Shown in pieces: positions 45,956 through 63,282 of a stretch of DNA of 64,000 bases (position 1 is the first letter of the stretch; the number at the start of each line of letters is the position of its first letter). A model generated the notes under the pieces. That model saw only the letters and a program-made list of their open reading frames with translations. It did not search any database and was not told the origin of the DNA. Source of the DNA: Halorarum halophilum (GTDB lineage: Archaea > Halobacteriota > Halobacteria > Halobacteriales > Haloferacaceae); the NCBI RefSeq assembly GCF_013401515.1, contig NZ_CP058529.1, positions 930,001 through 994,000 of the forward strand, written 5' to 3'. A program made the position numbers and the translations under genes.

Positions 45956-46121
45956 ACGGACCCCACAGCCGAGCCCGATCGGTGCCCCATCGTGCCCGGT
46001 ATGACTCCCCTCCCGCCCGTCGGGAATCTAATTTGGTCGGACCGAGGAATATGGAGCGCACGTTGACATTTATTCGCTATCAACACCGTTAACCCAACCA
46101 GCGTGGAGGATAACCCACCGT

Positions 46122-46901
46122 ATGACTGACGAACCAGACGAGCGGACAGTAATAGTAACTGGCTCGAGCAAGGGGATCGGTAAACACGTCGCGAAGCGGT
46201 TCGCGGACGACGGTGCGAACGTCGTGGTCTGTTCGCGGTCGCTGGGCGACTGTGAACGGGTGGTCGAGGAGATCGAATCGGAGGGCGGATCCGCGCACGC
46301 AGTCGAAGTCGACGTTCGCTCCAAGCAGTCGGTCGACAACCTGATCGACGAGGCCGTCGATCGGTTCGGTCGGCTCGACGTGATGGTGAACAACGCCGGC
46401 ATCAACATCCGCGGCCCCGCGGAGGAGATCTCGCCCGAGGACTGGCAGCAGGTCGTCGACGTGAACCTGACCGGCGTCTTCTTCGGCGCCCAGGCGGCCG
46501 GCAGGCAGATGATCGAGCAGGGCGACGGCGGGAGCATCGTCAACATCTCCAGCATGATGGGCAGTGCGGGACAGCAGGACCGGACGCCGTACAACACGAC
46601 GAAGGGCGGCGTGAACAACCTCACGCGCTGTCTCGCCGTCGAGTGGGCCGAACACGACATCCATGTGAACGCCCTGGCGCCCGGGTACATCGAGACCGAG
46701 ATGGTCGAACAGGCCCAGGAGGACACCGGGTTCGACAAACAGGACATCAGGGACAGGACGCCGCTCGATCGGTTCGGAACCCTCAACGAGGTCGCGAACT
46801 GCGTCACGTTCCTCGCCTCCGGTGACAACTTCGTCACCGGGGAAGTGCTCACCGCGGACGGCGGCTGGATGGCCTTCGGCTGGGGCTGTAAGGACGACTG
46901 A
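46122..46901 (+). CDS. SDR-family dehydrogenase
   Basis: A 259-residue classical SDR. TGSSKGIG (13-20) binds NAD(P), NNAG is at 90-93, catalytic Ser is near 143, Tyr 157 and Lys 161 (YNTTK). LTADGGWMAFGWGCKDD ends it. Resembles gluconate 5-dehydrogenase/3-oxoacyl reductase relatives. TATA-like ATTTATTC and GGAGG upstream (46068-46112 region) support the ATG at 46122. Substrate unknown; its sister SDR fragment at the left end is a separate gene. Confidence 0.9.
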   Translation: MTDEPDERTVIVTGSSKGIGKHVAKRFADDGANVVVCSRSLGDCERVVEEIESEGGSAHAVEVDVRSKQSVDNLIDEAVDRFGRLDVMVNNAGINIRGPAEEISPEDWQQVVDVNLTGVFFGAQAAGRQMIEQGDGGSIVNISSMMGSAGQQDRTPYNTTKGGVNNLTRCLAVEWAEHDIHVNALAPGYIETEMVEQAQEDTGFDKQDIRDRTPLDRFGTLNEVANCVTFLASGDNFVTGEVLTADGGWMAFGWGCKDD

Positions 46902-47323
46902 CACACCCGACCGCCGACCTCGCGGCTGGCCGACGCGGCAGTCGTGGCTTCGGGAGCGTTCGTATTCGCAGTATCTCAAAAACGGATCGGGGTCACCTGC
47001 TGAAACGGCGAACGAGTTCGGCACAACGCGTTCTCGGAGAACACGCGATCTCGAAGCACGAGCAGGTGATCTATTTTCAGCCGAGCAGGACTCTATCTAC
47101 AGAACACGGGCTATCGCATATATACGGGATTTCTCTACGTATGGCTCTCGTTGGTTCTGACTCACGGACCTCCTAACCGCCATCTCTGTTGACATTACCC
47201 ATCCTCCGAACTACACGAAGTTGAGATTGTGACTCTCAGTGTGTACGCTATGTTCGAATATAAGTCGTTGAACCACTTCATCATTACAAAAGCGTTATTT
47301 TTGCTCTAATAGTAGGGCTATCG
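46902..47323. other. AT-rich intergenic region, no gene found
   Basis: These 422 bases have markedly lower GC than the flanks, especially 47030-47320. CGCG-TTCTCGGAGAA-CACGCG (47027-47047) forms a short imperfect hairpin. Near the end, TTATTTTTGCTC (47295-47306) is a candidate TATA/transcription region for the transporter gene starting at 47324. No coding frame with haloarchaeal composition is visible on either strand. Confidence 0.55.
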
Positions 47324-48712
47324 ATGGGAATCTTCGTGCTCGCAGCGGTATCGGGGGCCAGTATCGCACAATACACTGTGCCGATCGTGGGTACCGAACT
47401 GGGACAAACACAGGTCACCGCGGTCGGTGTCCTCTTGATTCTGATCCTCATCATGGGGTCGGGGTTCTTCTCGTCTTCTGAGATCGCATTGTTTTCTCTG
47501 CCAGCCCATCAGGTCGACGCGATGGTCGAGGAGGGTAAGCGTGGCGCACGAGTAGTCAAGTCCCTCAAGGAGGACCCTCACCGCTTGCTCGTGACGATTC
47601 TCGTGGGAAACAATATGGTCAACATCACGATGTCCTCCATCTCGACCACCATCGTCGGCTTCTATTTCGACGCGGGCACGGCAGTACTCGTCTCGTCGTT
47701 CGGTATCACGTCGATGGTCCTGCTGTTCGGTGAGAGCGCACCGAAGTCCTACGCCGTCGAGAACACCGACTCGTGGGCGCGGACCGTCGCTCCACCGTTG
47801 AAGATCGTCGGGAAAGTGCTGTGGCCGCTCATCACCATGTTCTACTATTTGACGAGCGCCGTAAACAGGATCACCGGCGGCAGCGCGTCCATCGAGTCGT
47901 CGTATGTCACCCGCGACGAGATCCAGAACATGATCAAGACGGGTGAACGGGAGGGCATCCTCGACGAGGAGGAACGTCAGATGCTTCAGCGCACCATGCG
48001 ATTCACCGACGCCAGCGCCAAGGAGGTGATGACCCCGCGCCTCGACATGGAGGCCATCTCCAGGGACGCGACCGTCGAGGAGGCCATTGAGAAGTGCATC
48101 CAGTCGGGACACGCCCGCCTGCCGGCCTACGAGGGCTCGCTGGACAACGTAATCGGCGTCTTCGACATCCGTGACCTGCAGGGTTCCAGCTACGGCGCCT
48201 TCGCCGACATCGAGGTGGAGGACGTGGTCGCCCCGACGCTCCACGTCCCCGAGTCCAAGAACGTCGACGAACTTCTCTCGGAGATGCGCGGAAACCGGAT
48301 GCACATGGTCGTCGTCATCGACGAGTTCGGCGCCACTGGAGGCCTCATCACGATGGAGGACGTGCTCGAGGAGATCGTCGGCGAGATACTGGTGGGCGGT
48401 GAGGACCACCCGATCGAGTCCGTCGACGACGACACCGTCCTGGTGGACGGCTCTGTCAACATCGAGGAGATCAACGAGGCTCTCGGCATCGTACTGCCGG
48501 AGGGCGAGGAGTTCGAGACCATTGCGGGCTTCATCTTCAACCGGGCGGGCCGCCTTGTCGAACAGGGCGAGGAGTTCGACTACGAGAACGTGACGCTGGG
48601 GGTCGAACAGGTGGAGAACACTCGTATCCAGAAGGCCCGGGTGACCGTCGATCGGACCGGCAGTGTCACGATCGACGAGGAATCGCCGGATGGCGAGGGT
48701 GAACCTGATTGA
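47324..48712 (+). CDS. CNNM/CorC-type transporter (hemolysin family)
   Basis: A 462-residue protein. The DUF21/CNNM transmembrane domain spans about 30-205 (LILILIMGSGFFSSSEIALF with the cation-coordinating SSE sequence; FGESAPKSYAVEN). A CBS pair (about 225-345; VMTPRLDMEAISRDATVEEA, then VVVIDEFGATGGLITMEDVL) follows, and a CorC_HlyC C-terminal domain (about 370-450). Mg2+/cation efflux is the family role. ATG 47324. GC content is lower than neighbouring genes, so later acquisition is possible. Confidence 0.92.
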   Translation: MGIFVLAAVSGASIAQYTVPIVGTELGQTQVTAVGVLLILILIMGSGFFSSSEIALFSLPAHQVDAMVEEGKRGARVVKSLKEDPHRLLVTILVGNNMVNITMSSISTTIVGFYFDAGTAVLVSSFGITSMVLLFGESAPKSYAVENTDSWARTVAPPLKIVGKVLWPLITMFYYLTSAVNRITGGSASIESSYVTRDEIQNMIKTGEREGILDEEERQMLQRTMRFTDASAKEVMTPRLDMEAISRDATVEEAIEKCIQSGHARLPAYEGSLDNVIGVFDIRDLQGSSYGAFADIEVEDVVAPTLHVPESKNVDELLSEMRGNRMHMVVVIDEFGATGGLITMEDVLEEIVGEILVGGEDHPIESVDDDTVLVDGSVNIEEINEALGIVLPEGEEFETIAGFIFNRAGRLVEQGEEFDYENVTLGVEQVENTRIQKARVTVDRTGSVTIDEESPDGEGEPD

Positions 48713-49075
48713 CTAGCAGTGTCTCAACGGCTAAGACTCCGAACAGGTGACTCAGCTCCTGTGAAAAGGCTGTACCGGCAAACCACGATTTTCCAAGAGT
48801 TCGCCACTTCAGTACTTCTTCTGGCACCCTCGGGGACTCGAACTTTTATCGCATCAGGACTGAGTTCCTCAACCAGATGGTCGGCTCTCCCCTGAGTCGT
48901 AGGGATTGTTTCTCGGTGACTTATTTCTGAAGTTGAGACCAGCTCTCTCGATAGTTGGAGACGGAGGACTGTACGATTGTGAGTGCGCTCCCTGAGGTTG
49001 GAGCCTTCACGGTGCATAACGGGTGAAAACCATTAGGGACGGGCTTTCGTACTCTCGCACGACCAGGATCTGGTC
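48713..49075. other. Intergenic region upstream of the truncated USP gene
   Basis: About 360 bases of lower GC than the flanking genes. A 97-codon frame on the minus strand (48724-49017) has no acidic bias and no recognisable motif, and I do not accept it. In the frame of the USP gene the next stop is at 49034-49036, so there is no room for a complete first USP domain. Confidence 0.5.
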
Positions 49076-49633
49076 GTGATGCCGACGCACGGCCACGAGG
49101 GCCTCTCGCGATACCTCAACGGAAGCGTCTCCGAGAAGGTCGTCCGGCTCTCCTCGGTTCCGGTTCTCACAGTCCGAATGCAGCCCGATGAACAGCTCGT
49201 GTTCCCCTATGAGAACATCCTCATCCCGACGGATGGGAGTTCCGCCGCGACGTACGCTGCCGATCATCTCGTAGAGCTCGCGGCGGAACTCGATGCGACC
49301 GTGCACGTCCTGTCTGTCGTGGACGACGCTGCACTCGGGCTGGACGTCCGATCGACGAGTTCCGGAGAAGAAAGTGAACAGGCCGCGACTGACGCTGTCG
49401 AGACCGTCGTCTCGAAGGCCAAGACACATGGGGTCACGAACACCGTCCGCCATATCGAACACGGAACACCCGTCGAGGTAATCCTCGACAGTATCGAATC
49501 GAACGACATACATGCTGTTGGAATGGGAACGACAGGAAAGCGCGGTACGGAGCGTATCTTGCTCGGCAGTGTCGCTGAGAAGACCGTGCGATCCGCCCCG
49601 GACCCCGTCATGACTGTCGCAGAACCGGAGTAA
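49076..49633 (+). CDS. Universal stress protein, 5'-truncated double-domain type
   Basis: A 185-residue protein whose first 40 residues (MPTHGHEGLSRYLNGSVSEK and on) are the C-terminal end of a USP domain, including the G-2x-G-9x-G-S ATP loop, followed by a complete second USP domain (NILIPTDGSSAATYAADHL to GTTGKRGTERILLGSVAEKT). The in-frame sequence can be extended back only to 49037 (next stop at 49034-49036), so the N-terminal strands and helices of the first domain are missing. The second domain could still fold. GTG 49076 and ATG 49079 are possible starts. Likely a decaying gene. Confidence 0.8.
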   Translation: MMPTHGHEGLSRYLNGSVSEKVVRLSSVPVLTVRMQPDEQLVFPYENILIPTDGSSAATYAADHLVELAAELDATVHVLSVVDDAALGLDVRSTSSGEESEQAATDAVETVVSKAKTHGVTNTVRHIEHGTPVEVILDSIESNDIHAVGMGTTGKRGTERILLGSVAEKTVRSAPDPVMTVAEPE

Positions 49634-49894
49634 CTCCTGTCAACAGGAAAGGTTTCCACCGCCTCCGCTCGGAGGATCCCCGAATGGAGATGCGGATTTC
49701 GGAAATATAGGTTTCTTCCCTGCACCATCCGAAGTACGCGTATCCGCCGCTCGGCTGTTCCTATAGCGGCATACCATGTATAAGTCGGCGGGGAGTCAGT
49801 ATTCCGTCGCCTCTCAAACGACGAAACGACCGATCCAGCGCCGACATTTCCGAAAAACGGCGGGCTTTACCCGACGTCACCGGAACGGGCGACC

Positions 49895-50701
49895 ATGCTC
49901 CGTTCCACGTTCGGGACCGACAGTCCGGTCGTCGGCATGGTACACCTCCCGCCGCTGCCGGGCGCGCCGAAGTACGAGGGCTCGCTCGAGGACCTGCTCG
50001 CGGACGCCCGCCGGGACGCGCGGGCGCTGGACGACGGCGGCGTCGATGGGATCATGGTCGAGAACTTCGGCGACGTGCCGTTCTACCCGGACGACGTCCC
50101 GAAACACGTGGTGGCGACGATGACCCGCGCAGTGCGGGAAGTCGTCGAGGCGGTCGACGTTCCGGTCGGCGTGAACGTCCTGCGAAACGACGCCGACGCC
50201 GCCGTCTCGGTCGCCGCGGCGACCGGTGCGGAGTTCGTGCGGGTGAACGTCCACACGGGCGCCCGCGTCACCGATCAGGGCGTCGTCGAGGGGAAGGCCC
50301 ACGAGACCGTCAGGCTGTGCGAGCGGATCGACGCGGACGTTCGAATCCTCGCGGACCACGACGTGAAACACTCGGCGCCGCTCGCCGCGCGCGAGTTCAC
50401 CGCCGAGTCGATAGTCGACGGCGTGGAACGCGGCCTCGCCGACGCGACGGTCGTGAGCGGCATCGGGACCGGCCACGGCGTCGACCTGGCCGACCTGGAG
50501 GCGGCCGTCGACGCCCGCGAGGAGTTCGACCTCGACACGCCCATCCTCGTCGGCAGCGGCGTCACCGTCGACACCGTCGGGGAGATCCTGTCACTCGCCG
50601 ACGGCGTCATCGTCGGCACGGCCCTGAAGGAGGACGGCGACGTCGGCGAGCCCGTGTCTGAGCGACGCGTCCGCGAACTGGTCGAGGCCGCAGAGCTGTA
50701 A
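49895..50701 (+). CDS. BtpA/SgcQ-family protein
   Basis: A 268-residue TIM-barrel protein beginning TDSPVVGMVHLPPLPGAPKY with GVDGIMVENFGDVPF in strand 2 and GVNVLRNDADAAVSVAAAT, the family signature. BtpA is needed for photosystem I stability in cyanobacteria and SgcQ sits in a sugar operon, while the archaeal substrate is unknown. ATG 49895. It is convergent with a PfkB kinase, and stops are 73 bases apart. Confidence 0.88.
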   Translation: MLRSTFGTDSPVVGMVHLPPLPGAPKYEGSLEDLLADARRDARALDDGGVDGIMVENFGDVPFYPDDVPKHVVATMTRAVREVVEAVDVPVGVNVLRNDADAAVSVAAATGAEFVRVNVHTGARVTDQGVVEGKAHETVRLCERIDADVRILADHDVKHSAPLAAREFTAESIVDGVERGLADATVVSGIGTGHGVDLADLEAAVDAREEFDLDTPILVGSGVTVDTVGEILSLADGVIVGTALKEDGDVGEPVSERRVRELVEAAEL

Positions 50702-59916: not shown

Positions 59917-59934
59917 GGGGCTGACCCCTATTTT
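59917..59934 (+). terminator. Hairpin terminator of the dpp operon
   Basis: Directly after the dppF stop, GGGG CTGA CCCC forms a 4-bp stem, followed by TATTTT. This is the usual layout of a factor-independent archaeal terminator, though with a short stem. Confidence 0.5.
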
Positions 59935-60794
59935 GGTCTAAGATCGCCGTACACCAGTGCGAAACGGAGTACCGCTGAGGCCGAGTCTCGTGTTCGTTTC
60001 CGAGACCGCACCTCGGGGTTCCCTGGATCGTAGAGACGTCCGCGAGTCGGGTGAGACGTCGTTCCAATCCGGCGCTGACCTCCCCGTCCCACCCCCACCC
60101 AGACTGGTACACGACCAAGTCGCTAGCCGCGACCCAGTCCGCTTTCGGTGTGTTGGACGACCTTTCGCCGTTCGGTGGGGGACGTGAATCCAAGGGTGTA
60201 TCCTCACCCACACAGGGGGGTCCAGACCGGCAAACTGTCCGCCAGCCTGCGTATAGCGACATGTAGTTCATAAGATGGCCTTAGGACGGTAGAAATTATT
60301 CTATTCCGAGTTAATATTGGTAGTGGTATGCAGTTGAGCGATTATTGGCCAGGGAGGGGTATCGAGAACCTCCATCAACAGGACCACTCCACCGCCTATC
60401 GGATCGAGAAACGAGGATCCTCACAACGACCCCTCGTGAGCACCGAGCCACAGACGACCCCCTGACCGAGGAGTGGATTGGGAAGCTCCAGCGCGACGAA
60501 GATCGGCGGAGATTCGACGAAGACATCTCAGTCTCGTCCAGCCAACCACGCGATCACCAGGTTGCGTGACGTTTGCTCTGGCGTAGTCCCAGTCCCGGCT
60601 GAACGAAGGCACTGATAGACAGACAGGAAGTGGTGGAAGGTCAGAATAGAATGAAGACATAGTATTGAGGAAGTAGAATAGTTAAGACAGAATTTAGAGC
60701 CTCAATTGGGAGAAATCATAACCCCATACACAGTCTTAGTAAGTTAGGACAGGAAACAGGGGAATTGATATGGGATGGACGTCACGACGAGTCC
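59935..60794. other. AT-rich gene-poor stretch left of the integrase
   Basis: About 860 bases, much lower in GC than the rest, especially 60270-60330 and 60640-60770. I find no gene I would accept; a 74-codon frame at 60345-60569 has a plausible acidic C-terminus (TEEWIGKLQRDEDRRRFDED) but no start context or recognisable motif. The last 120 bases probably contain the promoter of the DUF5805-type gene. The stretch is the left arm of the integrase island. Confidence 0.55.
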
Positions 60795-61202
60795 GTGAGC
60801 GATCCCGACACCGATCGGACGGAGGTGCGCGTGAAACTCCCCCGATACCAGAAGGAGGAGTGGGCCGACGACGCCGACGACCTGGACATGTCGCAGGCCG
60901 AGTTCGTCCGTACGATGGTCCAGGCGGGCCGCAGCGACCTCGGACTGGAAGCCGACACCGCGCCCCAGGCGACCGCCAGCGCGGAACCCACTTCCGAAGG
61001 CGTTGACCCCCGGGGTGGCGGCCTCGAAGAGCGGATCCTCCGGGTTCTTCGGCAGGAGGAGGCCATGTCGTGGGACGACCTACTCGAGGAGGTGGTCGGC
61101 GACCTCGAGGACCGACTCGACGAGACGATGGGCGAGTTGCAGCAGTCGGGACGCGTGAGGTTCAGCGGCCGCGACGGGGGGTACGTGTTGACCGATGAGT
61201 AG
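60795..61202 (+). CDS. DUF5805-like protein, putative integrase-associated regulator
   Basis: A 135-residue protein. Residues 6-48 look like a ribbon-helix-helix DNA-binding domain (EVRVKLPRYQKEEWADDADD; LDMSQAEFVRTMVQAG). A linker is followed by a winged-helix-like C-terminal half (LEERILRVLRQEEAMSWDDL; LQQSGRVRFSGRDGGYVLTD). I match it from memory to DUF5805, which often sits beside haloarchaeal integrases. The GTG at 60795 is chosen; TTG 60765 is in frame. Its last 8 bases overlap the integrase start (ATGAGTAG). Confidence 0.8.
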   Translation: MSDPDTDRTEVRVKLPRYQKEEWADDADDLDMSQAEFVRTMVQAGRSDLGLEADTAPQATASAEPTSEGVDPRGGGLEERILRVLRQEEAMSWDDLLEEVVGDLEDRLDETMGELQQSGRVRFSGRDGGYVLTDE

Positions 61203-62268
61203 CGCCGACGACTCCGACGTCGACGACCCCGCCGATTCGGTCGGGTACTTCCTCCAGGACATGGAGTTCCACGGCAAGAGCGACCGGACGCGACGGGAGT
61301 ACGGCCGCGTCCTCCGGCGGTTCGAGTCCTTCCTCTCGGGCGGCGGGCCGTCCGGGTCCGTGGGGATCGAACCCGGCGACGCGTCCCACCGCGACTGCAT
61401 GGCGTTCGTCCACGATCTTCGCCGTGACCCCGACCTCGCCGACTCGACGGTCGCGACGTACGCGGCGTACCTCCACCGCTTCTACGCGTACATGACGCAG
61501 GTCGGGACCTTCGACGCGAACCCGATGGCGCTCGTGATGGAGGAACTCGACGAACGAATCGACACCGACCCGACCCGCCGGGAGATCTCGGTCCCCCGGA
61601 TGCGGGCGTTCGTGGCAGAGATCGATCACCCTCTGGAGCGGGCACTGGTGGTGACGCTCCTGAAAACCGGGATGCGGGTGGGGGAGCTGTGCAACCTCGA
61701 CCTCCGGGACCTCTCGCTCTCCCGCGACCTCGACGGATTCGACGTCGGAGGGAGGGCACAGCTCGACGGCCGCCCGGACTCGCTGTACGTCGCGTCCGAA
61801 CCGACCGTCGGTGAGGTGTATAACGGCGAGGAGCGTACCGCCTCGAACAAGCGCAAGCGCGGCACCGTCGTCCCCGTCGATGACGAACTCGAACGGACGC
61901 TCCTCCGGTGGCTCGCCGTCCGGCCGGACCCGGTCTCACCCGCCGAACCGCTGTTCGTCGGAACCGCGAGCGGATGGGGCGAACGGCTCACCCCCGAACA
62001 GGTCCAACGCGTCGTCCGCGACCACGCGACCGCCATGGGCTGGTACGAGTCGGGCGCCGGGGCCGCAGAGAACGTCACGCCCCACTACTTCCGACACTTC
62101 TTCACGACACACCTCCGGGACCGGACCGGGGAGCGCGGCGTCGTGAAGTACCTCCGCGGCGACGTCGCGAAGGACATCATCGACACCTACACGCACAACT
62201 GGGGCGACAACGTCCGCGAGACGTACGAGCGACACATCTACTCGCTTCTCGACTTACCGCCGAGGTGA
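61195..62268 (+). CDS. Tyrosine recombinase/integrase (XerA-like)
   Basis: A 357-residue phage-integrase-family enzyme. SAM-like N-terminal domain about 15-115 (DRTRREYGRVLRRFESFL). Catalytic residues: R161 in TGMRVGEL, K219 or K221 in ASNKRKRG, H297 and R300 in HYFRHFF, H334 in THNW, and Y344 in ETYERH. Most parts are intact, so it is probably active. The start overlaps the DUF5805-like stop, which indicates co-expression. It may mobilise the flanking gene-poor region or act as a chromosome-dimer resolvase. Confidence 0.93.
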   Translation: MSSADDSDVDDPADSVGYFLQDMEFHGKSDRTRREYGRVLRRFESFLSGGGPSGSVGIEPGDASHRDCMAFVHDLRRDPDLADSTVATYAAYLHRFYAYMTQVGTFDANPMALVMEELDERIDTDPTRREISVPRMRAFVAEIDHPLERALVVTLLKTGMRVGELCNLDLRDLSLSRDLDGFDVGGRAQLDGRPDSLYVASEPTVGEVYNGEERTASNKRKRGTVVPVDDELERTLLRWLAVRPDPVSPAEPLFVGTASGWGERLTPEQVQRVVRDHATAMGWYESGAGAAENVTPHYFRHFFTTHLRDRTGERGVVKYLRGDVAKDIIDTYTHNWGDNVRETYERHIYSLLDLPPR

Positions 62269-63282
62269 CTCGGAGGGTAGTCAGGTGATGTTCGTCCGCA
62301 GAACCGGTCGAGACGGGGCTAACGTGATCGAGACGTCGGGAACGGGTGGCGCGACGCCTCCCTCTGCCCTATCCCGATGAACAGGATCGCCTGCTCAGAG
62401 ACGATCCCGAAGGTCGACAACTGATGGCTTCCGCCGTGGATCGCCTGTCGCGGTCGACGTATACCGGTTCGGGTATTGCGGTGTCGAGCTCCGAACGTCG
62501 ACTCGATCGAACAGACGGACGATGGCTGTCCGAAACGCGGGCTGACTCCCCTGGGCACCCGCGCCACATCGTCGGCTTCACCCCACGAGATCACCACTGA
62601 GCCCGTCTCGACGGTACTGGAATCGGGTGCAGACTGGGGCTCACGGCGGAGTTATCGAGCGGCCCATTCCGGCGGTTGATTTTGTCTCCAACCTCGAGGG
62701 CGTCGGAACGGCCGGCTCGCGCTTTCGACGTTACCGTCGACGCTGATTTCGGACTCCGCCGACCGATGAGGAGTCCCGCCGACAGGCGGACAGTCACGGT
62801 TCGTCCCGCCACCTGGCTAGTTCCCGAATCCGCCGTTGAGGCGTTCGAGACAGTACTCAGTTCCGGAATGAAGGTAATCAGGGGGCGCCTTCGTCGCGAC
62901 ATATAAACCTTATACGGCTATAGCAAAGTGTAGTGTATGTGTGCCCACCAGCGATGGCGCTCTCGGGACAATCGACCGCGCCTGCGTCTCGGCGAACGGG
63001 GCGCGTGCCATCGAATCCGCGAATCTGGCTTTCCCCGGTTGATCGATAACCACTACAAATGGCCGGAGGTCCGACCCGGGTGATCACGAAGCCCCGTTTC
63101 GACCGAGATTCGTCGGGCGACGCTCGCAACACGCGTTTTGGTTCGATGCGTACCAGTCGCAGGCGACGAGTAGAGGTCCGGGGAACGCGGGAGGCTTCCG
63201 AGGGAGTGGAACACCCAGAGCCGCCGGTTCGATGGGGCTGAGCGGCGGTATCTTTCATTAGCAGGGACGTGTCCACTCGACC
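62269..63282. other. Gene-poor region right of the integrase
   Basis: About 1 kb without a gene I can support. Weak frames at 62346-62600 and 62676-62906 lack acidic composition and start signals. ATATAAACCTTATA at 62901-62914 is the best TATA-like element in the gap, with a possible short basic frame after it (62937-63083), which I do not accept. An AT-rich site just before 63283 drives the aldolase gene. The region looks like decayed insert material. Confidence 0.5.
63249..63260 (+). promoter_or_regulatory. TATA-like element of the aldolase gene
   Basis: TATCTTTCATTA lies 23-34 bases upstream of the GTG at 63283, so transcription would begin at about the start codon and the mRNA would be leaderless. 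Confidence 0.5.

Follow-up and report, generated by a model that had tools for sequence, protein, structure and literature searches.

A tyrosine recombinase gene, its partner and a nested palindrome

The window analysed here is a stretch of 64,000 nucleotides from the haloarchaeon Halorarum halophilum (NCBI RefSeq assembly GCF_013401515.1, contig NZ_CP058529.1, positions 930,001 to 994,000 of the forward strand; positions below count from its first letter). Close to its end, two genes on the + strand encode a tyrosine recombinase of 357 amino acids (61195..62268) and, directly upstream, a partner protein of 135 amino acids that belongs to the DUF5805 family (60795..61202). An earlier note on this DNA, made from the letters, had described the two genes as overlapping by 8 bases, and both open reading frames (ORFs) are present as it said, the partner ending at 61202 and the recombinase starting at 61195. 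The recombinase was recognised by Pfam (Phage_integrase, expectation value (E) 2.1e-13, with SAM-like N-terminal domains), by an alignment of 59 orthologous sequences and by alignment to the XerA structure 5hxy, and the partner by Pfam PF19121 (E 8.8e-27), an alignment of eight orthologs and an AlphaFold model. The partner most likely starts at GTG 60795 rather than at TTG 60765, because the starts of its orthologs align there and TTG 60765 sits within a conserved site. This site is a dif-like nested palindrome, 54 base pairs (bp) long as modelled (60715..60768, + strand), and model R1, run with filters off, matches the window here and nowhere else (23.2 bits, E 0.0065). On the comparative evidence set out below, we propose that the gene pair and the palindrome probably constitute a haloarchaeal chromosome-dimer resolution module that works like Xer/dif.

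Architecture and covariation of the site

At the centre of the palindrome is a 28-bp core in the layout of dif (60728..60755, + strand, in the register of alignment A1), in which the 11-bp arms ACACAGTCTTA and TAGGACAGGAA enclose the 6-bp spacer GTAAGT (60739..60744). The arms of the window's core are symmetric in their inner part only. Beyond the core stand a left outer arm, AACCCC (60720..60725, outer helix columns 6-11 of A1), and a right outer arm, AGGGGA (60758..60763, columns 44-49). The motif alignment adds a stretch at 60757..60773 (+ strand), the clade's version of a conserved block downstream of the palindrome that reads GGGATAGATTGATGTGG elsewhere, and this block is possibly a promoter or start region or a binding site of the partner. 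Both TCTTAGTA and GGAATTGATA recur in G000 and in the congeners G001 and G002, and the spacer GTAAGT is found in G001 as well.

In general, the motif before the partner gene has inner arms, mostly GATAA/TTATC, on either side of a variable spacer of 6 bp; it also has outer arms of the CCCAC/GTGGG type and the block TAGATTGATGT. Between clades the inner arms switch jointly (GATAA/TTATC, GATTA/TAATC, GATCA/TGATC, TCTTA/TAAGA), and the spacer differs in sequence while its length stays constant at 6. About 40 of 57 aligned sites have inner arms of the ATAA...TTAT type, which we take to resemble the arms of known dif sites. Long, near-perfect arms occur in some genomes only, for example G026 and G161.

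These 57 sites, the training set of the model, come from 53 of 56 genomes and four named contigs; G043, G045 and G058 were left out for want of a credible site, and ten of the 57 were placed by hand. The layout has a 6-bp spacer, the extra outer arms and 7 inner pairs, of which five show double changes. Over its 13 pairs the covariation score was 0.393, compared with 0.185 in shuffled alignments (none of 500 as high) and 0.094-0.139 when the pairing partners were slid by 1-3 columns, and paired cells made up 74.2% versus 60.3% after shuffling; the inner-arm shuffle values are inflated, because the choice of register was steered by symmetry within the first 12 positions from the spacer. The outer positions 13-19 had no part in that choice. 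Strict base complementarity gave p values of 0.001-0.03 at positions 14-19 and 0.10 at position 13, and nothing at positions 20-24.

Distribution of the gene pair and of the site

A strong ortholog of the recombinase was found in 56 of 60 relatives, and the remaining four are assemblies 59-78% complete. In a wider sample of 135 genomes of the order, all at least 95% complete, it is present in every one at a match threshold of E <= 1e-60. The earlier note had asked for the co-occurrence of the two genes, and tblastn places DUF5805 directly upstream of the recombinase in all 56 genomes examined; in G043, G045 and G058 the partner has diverged (tblastn E 4e-6 to 5e-5) and was missed by the Pfam family search. 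Two haloarchaeal megaplasmid records likewise hold a partner match with a recombinase beside it.

The covariance model was run on the 135 genomes at E <= 0.05. We call the 110 of them outside G000-G059 held out, though some could be species of the four named training contigs; both-strand matches of one site were counted once, by hand, and the E-values of the model are rough. Among the held-out genomes, 59 of 60 matches lie 381-635 bp upstream of the recombinase, the odd one out being a second site in G122. In the whole sample 76 genomes have a match, and 76 of the 77 distinct matches lie at this same distance, where the partner gene begins; all but two of these 76 share the orientation of the recombinase gene. 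Ten chosen genomes that the search had missed were re-read around the operon, and nine have a local match before it (E 0.0025-0.23, in a smaller search), while the re-reading of G124 gave none. The Natrinema thermotolerans record CP031304, which did not serve in training and is filed as a 987-kilobase (kb) plasmid, has the site before the pair (E 7.8e-5); in Halomarina NZ_CP119993 one is seen by eye only.

Among the first 60 genomes, the operon-side site is the best match in 46 of the 47 with any match at E <= 1, a count that tests uniqueness and not detection, since most of these genomes trained the model; additional places occur in three of the 60 (E 0.29-1.0). The simple pattern GATAA-N6-TTATC turns up at 63 places in the same genomes, 19 at the operon and 44 elsewhere, and its reversed-pattern control at 35. 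We rejected these places as second copies of the site: among 30 loci read, the 21 off the operon were without the outer elements by eye. Where a site is detected there is one strong site per genome, with exceptions (G122 and G050) that are weighed below.

Position relative to the main origin

As a proxy for the origin oriC1 we used an Orc1/Cdc6 gene of one type, recognised on 17 chromosomes by two pieces summing to 463-483 bits, which we take to encode the oriC1 initiator. The distance of the site from that gene in these 17 genomes is 0.72-0.99 of the half-chromosome (mean 0.88, standard deviation (SD) 0.09). Fourteen further single-contig genomes, in which the 5' side of the recombinase stood in for the site where this had no match, gave fractions of 0.60-0.99 (mean 0.89), and 30 of the 31 genomes are at 0.70 or beyond, the exception being G114 at 0.60. 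Eight control genes for aminoacyl-tRNA synthetases and translation GTPases, assigned by score and one per genome, had mean fractions of 0.20-0.73 and SDs of 0.18-0.30. G059 carries two genes of the Orc1 type, and measuring from the second changes its fraction, worked out by hand, from 0.90 to about 0.62. Another conserved Orc gene mostly stays near oriC1.

The recombinase and its partner

Residues R161, K219, H297 and R300 are invariant in all 59 aligned orthologs and Tyr332 is kept in 58; we assume their catalytic roles from knowledge of the family together with the alignment to XerA 5hxy. That alignment also reveals about 30 extra residues between R161 and K219 relative to XerA. The protein is not a canonical archaeal XerA, as it scores 106 bits against the NCBIfam XerA model NF040815, whose cut-off is 220, and in none of the 60 genomes does any protein exceed that cut-off. 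The predicted structure of the recombinase was poor (mean predicted local distance difference test (pLDDT) 49.5) and was not used.

The partner had been described in the earlier note as a likely ribbon-helix-helix plus a winged helix. This layout finds weak support in the AlphaFold model (mean pLDDT 67), which has helices at 17-29, 34-48, 77-88 and 93-117 and two short strands, arranged as an unpaired stretch, a helix pair in the pattern of a ribbon-helix-helix subunit, a linker and a winged-helix-like DUF5805 part. Foldseek of this model against the PDB gave no match at E <= 0.001, and the best-superposed entries, AmrZ, Arc and TacA1 (template modelling score over target 0.71-0.73), cover the helix pair alone. 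The winged helix of FtsK-gamma is in the list at an E of about 3, which we do not count as evidence. As to what the partner does, the earlier note had suggested an excisionase or a repressor. An autoregulatory role is possible; the excisionase role is without support, there being no sign of an element to excise.

Further copies and relatives of these genes were encountered. The window's genome has a second DUF5805 gene (L087 9422-9847, PF19121 E 1e-18) on contig C4 of 148,857 bases, near Orc/Cdc6 and ParA-like genes; no recombinase match was found in the 19.5 kb read around it, and upstream of it is a weak site-like match (E 0.44) with outer arms GGTGCCA/TGTCACC. In G034 (L125 10280-11579) a DUF5805-like gene is followed by a gene with a CxxC/HNH-like start, by eye, that runs into a recombinase-like region. 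The second pairs of G161 (L175 4319-7190), G130 (L176 4097-7204) and G141 (L177 4052-7151) show no N-terminal half in the partner match, and two of them have a recombinase match spread over different frames. Six genomes (G124, G104, G115, G114, G158 and G144; L179-L184) have a second, diverged recombinase at 49-51% identity, accompanied in five of the six (not in L184) by a partner at 26-30% identity; some of these are preceded by a pair of dif-like palindromes in tandem, spaced about 70-90 bp and judged partly by eye.

Flanks and neighbourhood

The earlier note had called the flanks gene-poor and AT-rich. The first point holds, as 59917-60794 and 62269-63282 contain just ORFs that we judged unconvincing and no Rfam family was found in either; by ORF list, Rfam and, on the upstream side, composition, we delimit the gene-poor stretches as 59917..60714 before the site and 62269..63282 after the recombinase. 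The second is true in part: GC content is 57.9% at 60.0-61.0 kb and 63.4% at 62.0-63.0 kb, and the remaining 1-kb bins of the window have 65-75%, except for a dip at 46001-50000, where it drops to 55-63%, below the rest of the window save near the module. A gene for an SRAP protein, recognised by Pfam, is a neighbour in G027, and by eye one lies a few kb from the pair again in G009, G035, G026 and Halobaculum litoreum.

Proposed function and alternative explanations

We favour chromosome-dimer resolution because the recombinase is universal in the samples, its linkage to the partner is fixed, the site covaries and, where detected, is nearly unique, it can be separated from the start of the gene, it is located far from oriC1, and none of the 60 genomes has a protein above the XerA cut-off. 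From this we infer binding, cleavage, resolution and a role for the partner as follows. By analogy with Xer systems (PMC5357621), a recombinase tetramer would bind the two inner arms across two sister sites; cleavage at the borders of the 6-bp spacer, followed by strand exchange, would convert a dimeric circular chromosome into monomers. The partner would bind at the outer arms or at the conserved block alongside, and its part would be to assemble and activate the synapse or else to regulate expression of the pair.

A number of observations weigh against this proposal. The fifth catalytic position of the R-K-H-R-[H/W]-Y series is an Asp (Asp323) in all 59 orthologs and not the usual His or Trp, and in the alignment it stands opposite the His of the solved XerA 5hxy; we therefore limit the claim to a module that works like Xer and do not class it with the canonical Xer systems. 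More than one recombinase match is present in 9 of the 135 genomes. Other recombinases, patchy in distribution, come nearer to the XerA cut-off (214.8 bits in G009, 214.6 in G029), and such XerA-like proteins could share dimer resolution in the genomes that carry them. Two of five covariation measures were not above the shuffles (double-change pairs 321/500, pair types 35/500). The window's own site is a weak instance, with a genome-wide E of 0.44 in G000, and was one of the 57 training sites, and within the window's genus it is not set apart, its block-wise identity being 0.57-0.70 as compared with 0.35-0.72 elsewhere upstream; the other contigs of the window's genome have no site match at E <= 1. 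The model found no match at E <= 0.05 in 59 of the 135 genomes, and none at E <= 1 in 13 of the first 60. These 13 comprise three without a strong recombinase match, G043, G045 and G058 with no credible site, and seven training genomes, which include the two congeners of the window. The second site of G122 lies 257 kb from the operon (L178 8640-8693), where the 17 kb read gave no recombinase or DUF5805 match, and G050, the 47th genome with a match, 59% complete and with no recombinase found, has an isolated one (E 0.024). The position of oriC1 was located through the Orc1 gene only, and because genes near the origin keep part of their order, the 31 terminus positions are not independent. Lastly, the usual place of the site, about 40-75 bp upstream of the partner gene, is one in which a promoter or operator would be expected.

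This last point is the core of the strongest rival, in which the palindrome is an operator or promoter only: the partner or the recombinase would repress its own operon, and the true recombination site would be elsewhere or the recombinase would have another job. A transcript could start at the conserved TTGAtG block, and this, like the orientation shared with the recombinase gene in 74 of 76 operon-side matches, fits such an operator too. What speaks against it is the Xer-like layout, with a variable spacer of constant 6-bp length between covarying arms, as well as the location, as an operator would not be expected to sit at the terminus. The site also moves relative to the gene. It lies 284-318 bp from the partner start in G009, G035 and G026, the last with the near-perfect arms ACAGTATAA/TTATACTGT; in G038 it is inverted, 148 bp away; and in G027 genes for a pyridoxal-phosphate-dependent enzyme, two PIN proteins and a likely antitoxin intervene, putting it 3.26 kb away, with what appears to be a remnant resembling the right half of the site kept at the operon. 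Because it moves and flips in this way, the palindrome is better explained as a recombination site that may also serve regulation; the two roles are not exclusive, and we regard a role as operator alone as unlikely. The enzyme, PIN-domain and antitoxin-like genes of G027 (L122 6329-8744) are possible cargo inserted at the site. A neighbouring gene had no Pfam match, and the label hisG was rejected for it.

Less likely again is a terminus-located site-specific recombination system with some other output, such as decatenation of sister chromosomes, control of copy number or ploidy, or a DNA inversion switch. Such a view could draw on the second pair of G161, G130 and G141, partly decayed or frameshifted, which lies in opposite orientation across the same site. 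An inversion switch is impossible with a single site per chromosome, however, and dimer resolution is the output that best fits universal presence and a conserved terminus location. The earlier note had placed the module between the core of an otherwise empty element and a resident recombinase system with no cargo, and had named presence in all strains with no empty site as the mark of a fixed housekeeping recombinase. The pattern found is that of a fixed housekeeping recombinase, and of the two options it supports the resident system with no cargo. Gene-poor and partly AT-rich flanks, a protein of the integrase family and the occurrence of DUF5805 next to other recombinases elsewhere, for example in G022, are all compatible with a domesticated or defective integrative element. 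With the recombinase in 135 of 135 genomes and the partner linked in 56 of 56, and with convincing att repeats, tRNA and empty sites wanting, we reject an empty or degenerate element, and the module is not a current mobile element. The direct repeats near it are short or imperfect and look like chance, the 64,000-nucleotide window has no tRNA, no empty site was seen among the 60 relatives or the 135-genome sample (no conspecific strains included), and none of 50,697 phage records has a match to the partner. We therefore consider the integrative-element explanation very improbable, though the module may have an ancient origin in such an element.

Relation to known recombination systems

The comparisons that follow refer to the available excerpts of the papers cited by PMC number. 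Arch1 recombinases are described as Xer-like, specific to Halobacteria and distinguished by a short insertion, and have been proposed to compensate for the missing Xer (PMC8138268). The extra residues between R161 and K219 fit this insertion, and on that description we take the present recombinase to be a likely Arch1 member. The Arch1 passages of that paper give no site, partner, terminus location or Asp at the H/W position. What 12 xerC/D genes of H. volcanii do is left open in a 2020 review, as excerpted (PMC7776575).

Bacterial XerS/difSL and XerH/difH are likewise systems of a single recombinase, of about 356 amino acids, whose gene adjoins a palindromic site at the terminus (PMC5357621, PMC2731167). 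Here too the gene stands next to the site, and the gap of 381-635 bp holds the partner gene. Membership in the XerS/difSL type fails by sequence, as the recombinase reaches 37.8 of 267 bits against the XerS model and the spacer is 6 bp long, whereas the central region of difSL has 11 bp (PMC5357621, PMC2731167). Those systems depend on FtsK, and in the excerpts no DUF5805-like partner is mentioned (PMC5357621, PMC2731167); the haloarchaeal module departs from both in having a partner encoded alongside, outer arms and the Asp. Archaeal XerA/dif, defined by Cortez et al. 2010, shares with it a tyrosine recombinase, a palindrome with a 6-bp spacer and a terminus location (PMC2958812; structures 5hxy and 4a8e), at 122-144 degrees from oriC (PMC5357621) as compared with about 160 degrees on average here. 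In Thermococcales, however, dif lies away from the gene and XerA needs no partner (PMC2958812), whereas the haloarchaeal recombinase gene has both the site and a partner next to it, and its site has outer arms besides. XerCD acting at cer with ArgR and PepA is another case of a core site flanked by DNA for accessory proteins, but cer belongs to a plasmid, its two accessory sequences are of about 180 bp, and the accessory proteins are separate ones of the host (PMC5357621); in our module the outer arms border on the core, and the candidate accessory protein is co-encoded with the recombinase.

The text of Cortez et al. 2010 has no word starting with 'halo' and no Haloarcula, Halobacterium or Natronomonas. 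Our search of the open-licence literature on Xer/dif in haloarchaea, Haloferax volcanii and Halobacteria found no recognised haloarchaeal dif site or DUF5805 partner, and one for DUF5805 itself found no paper. Arch1 as a replacement for Xer had already been proposed in the passages seen of PMC8138268; for its dif site and partner our searches found no earlier description.

Implications

The analysis singles out one candidate resolution module per genome, whose clonable, testable site measures about 50 bp; the module is located far from the main origin, and DUF5805, a linked partner in every genome checked, gains a proposed function. We can go one step further, tentatively, and suggest that DUF5805 bound to the outer arms supplies the control of synapsis that FtsK supplies in bacteria, in a partner-dependent Xer/dif system with an Asp-variant active site; this we hold to be possible, if somewhat doubtful. 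Were it true, dimer resolution in haloarchaea would come with a regulator built into the system, and the control might reach plasmids through solo DUF5805 genes near Orc/Cdc6 and ParA, such as that on contig C4.

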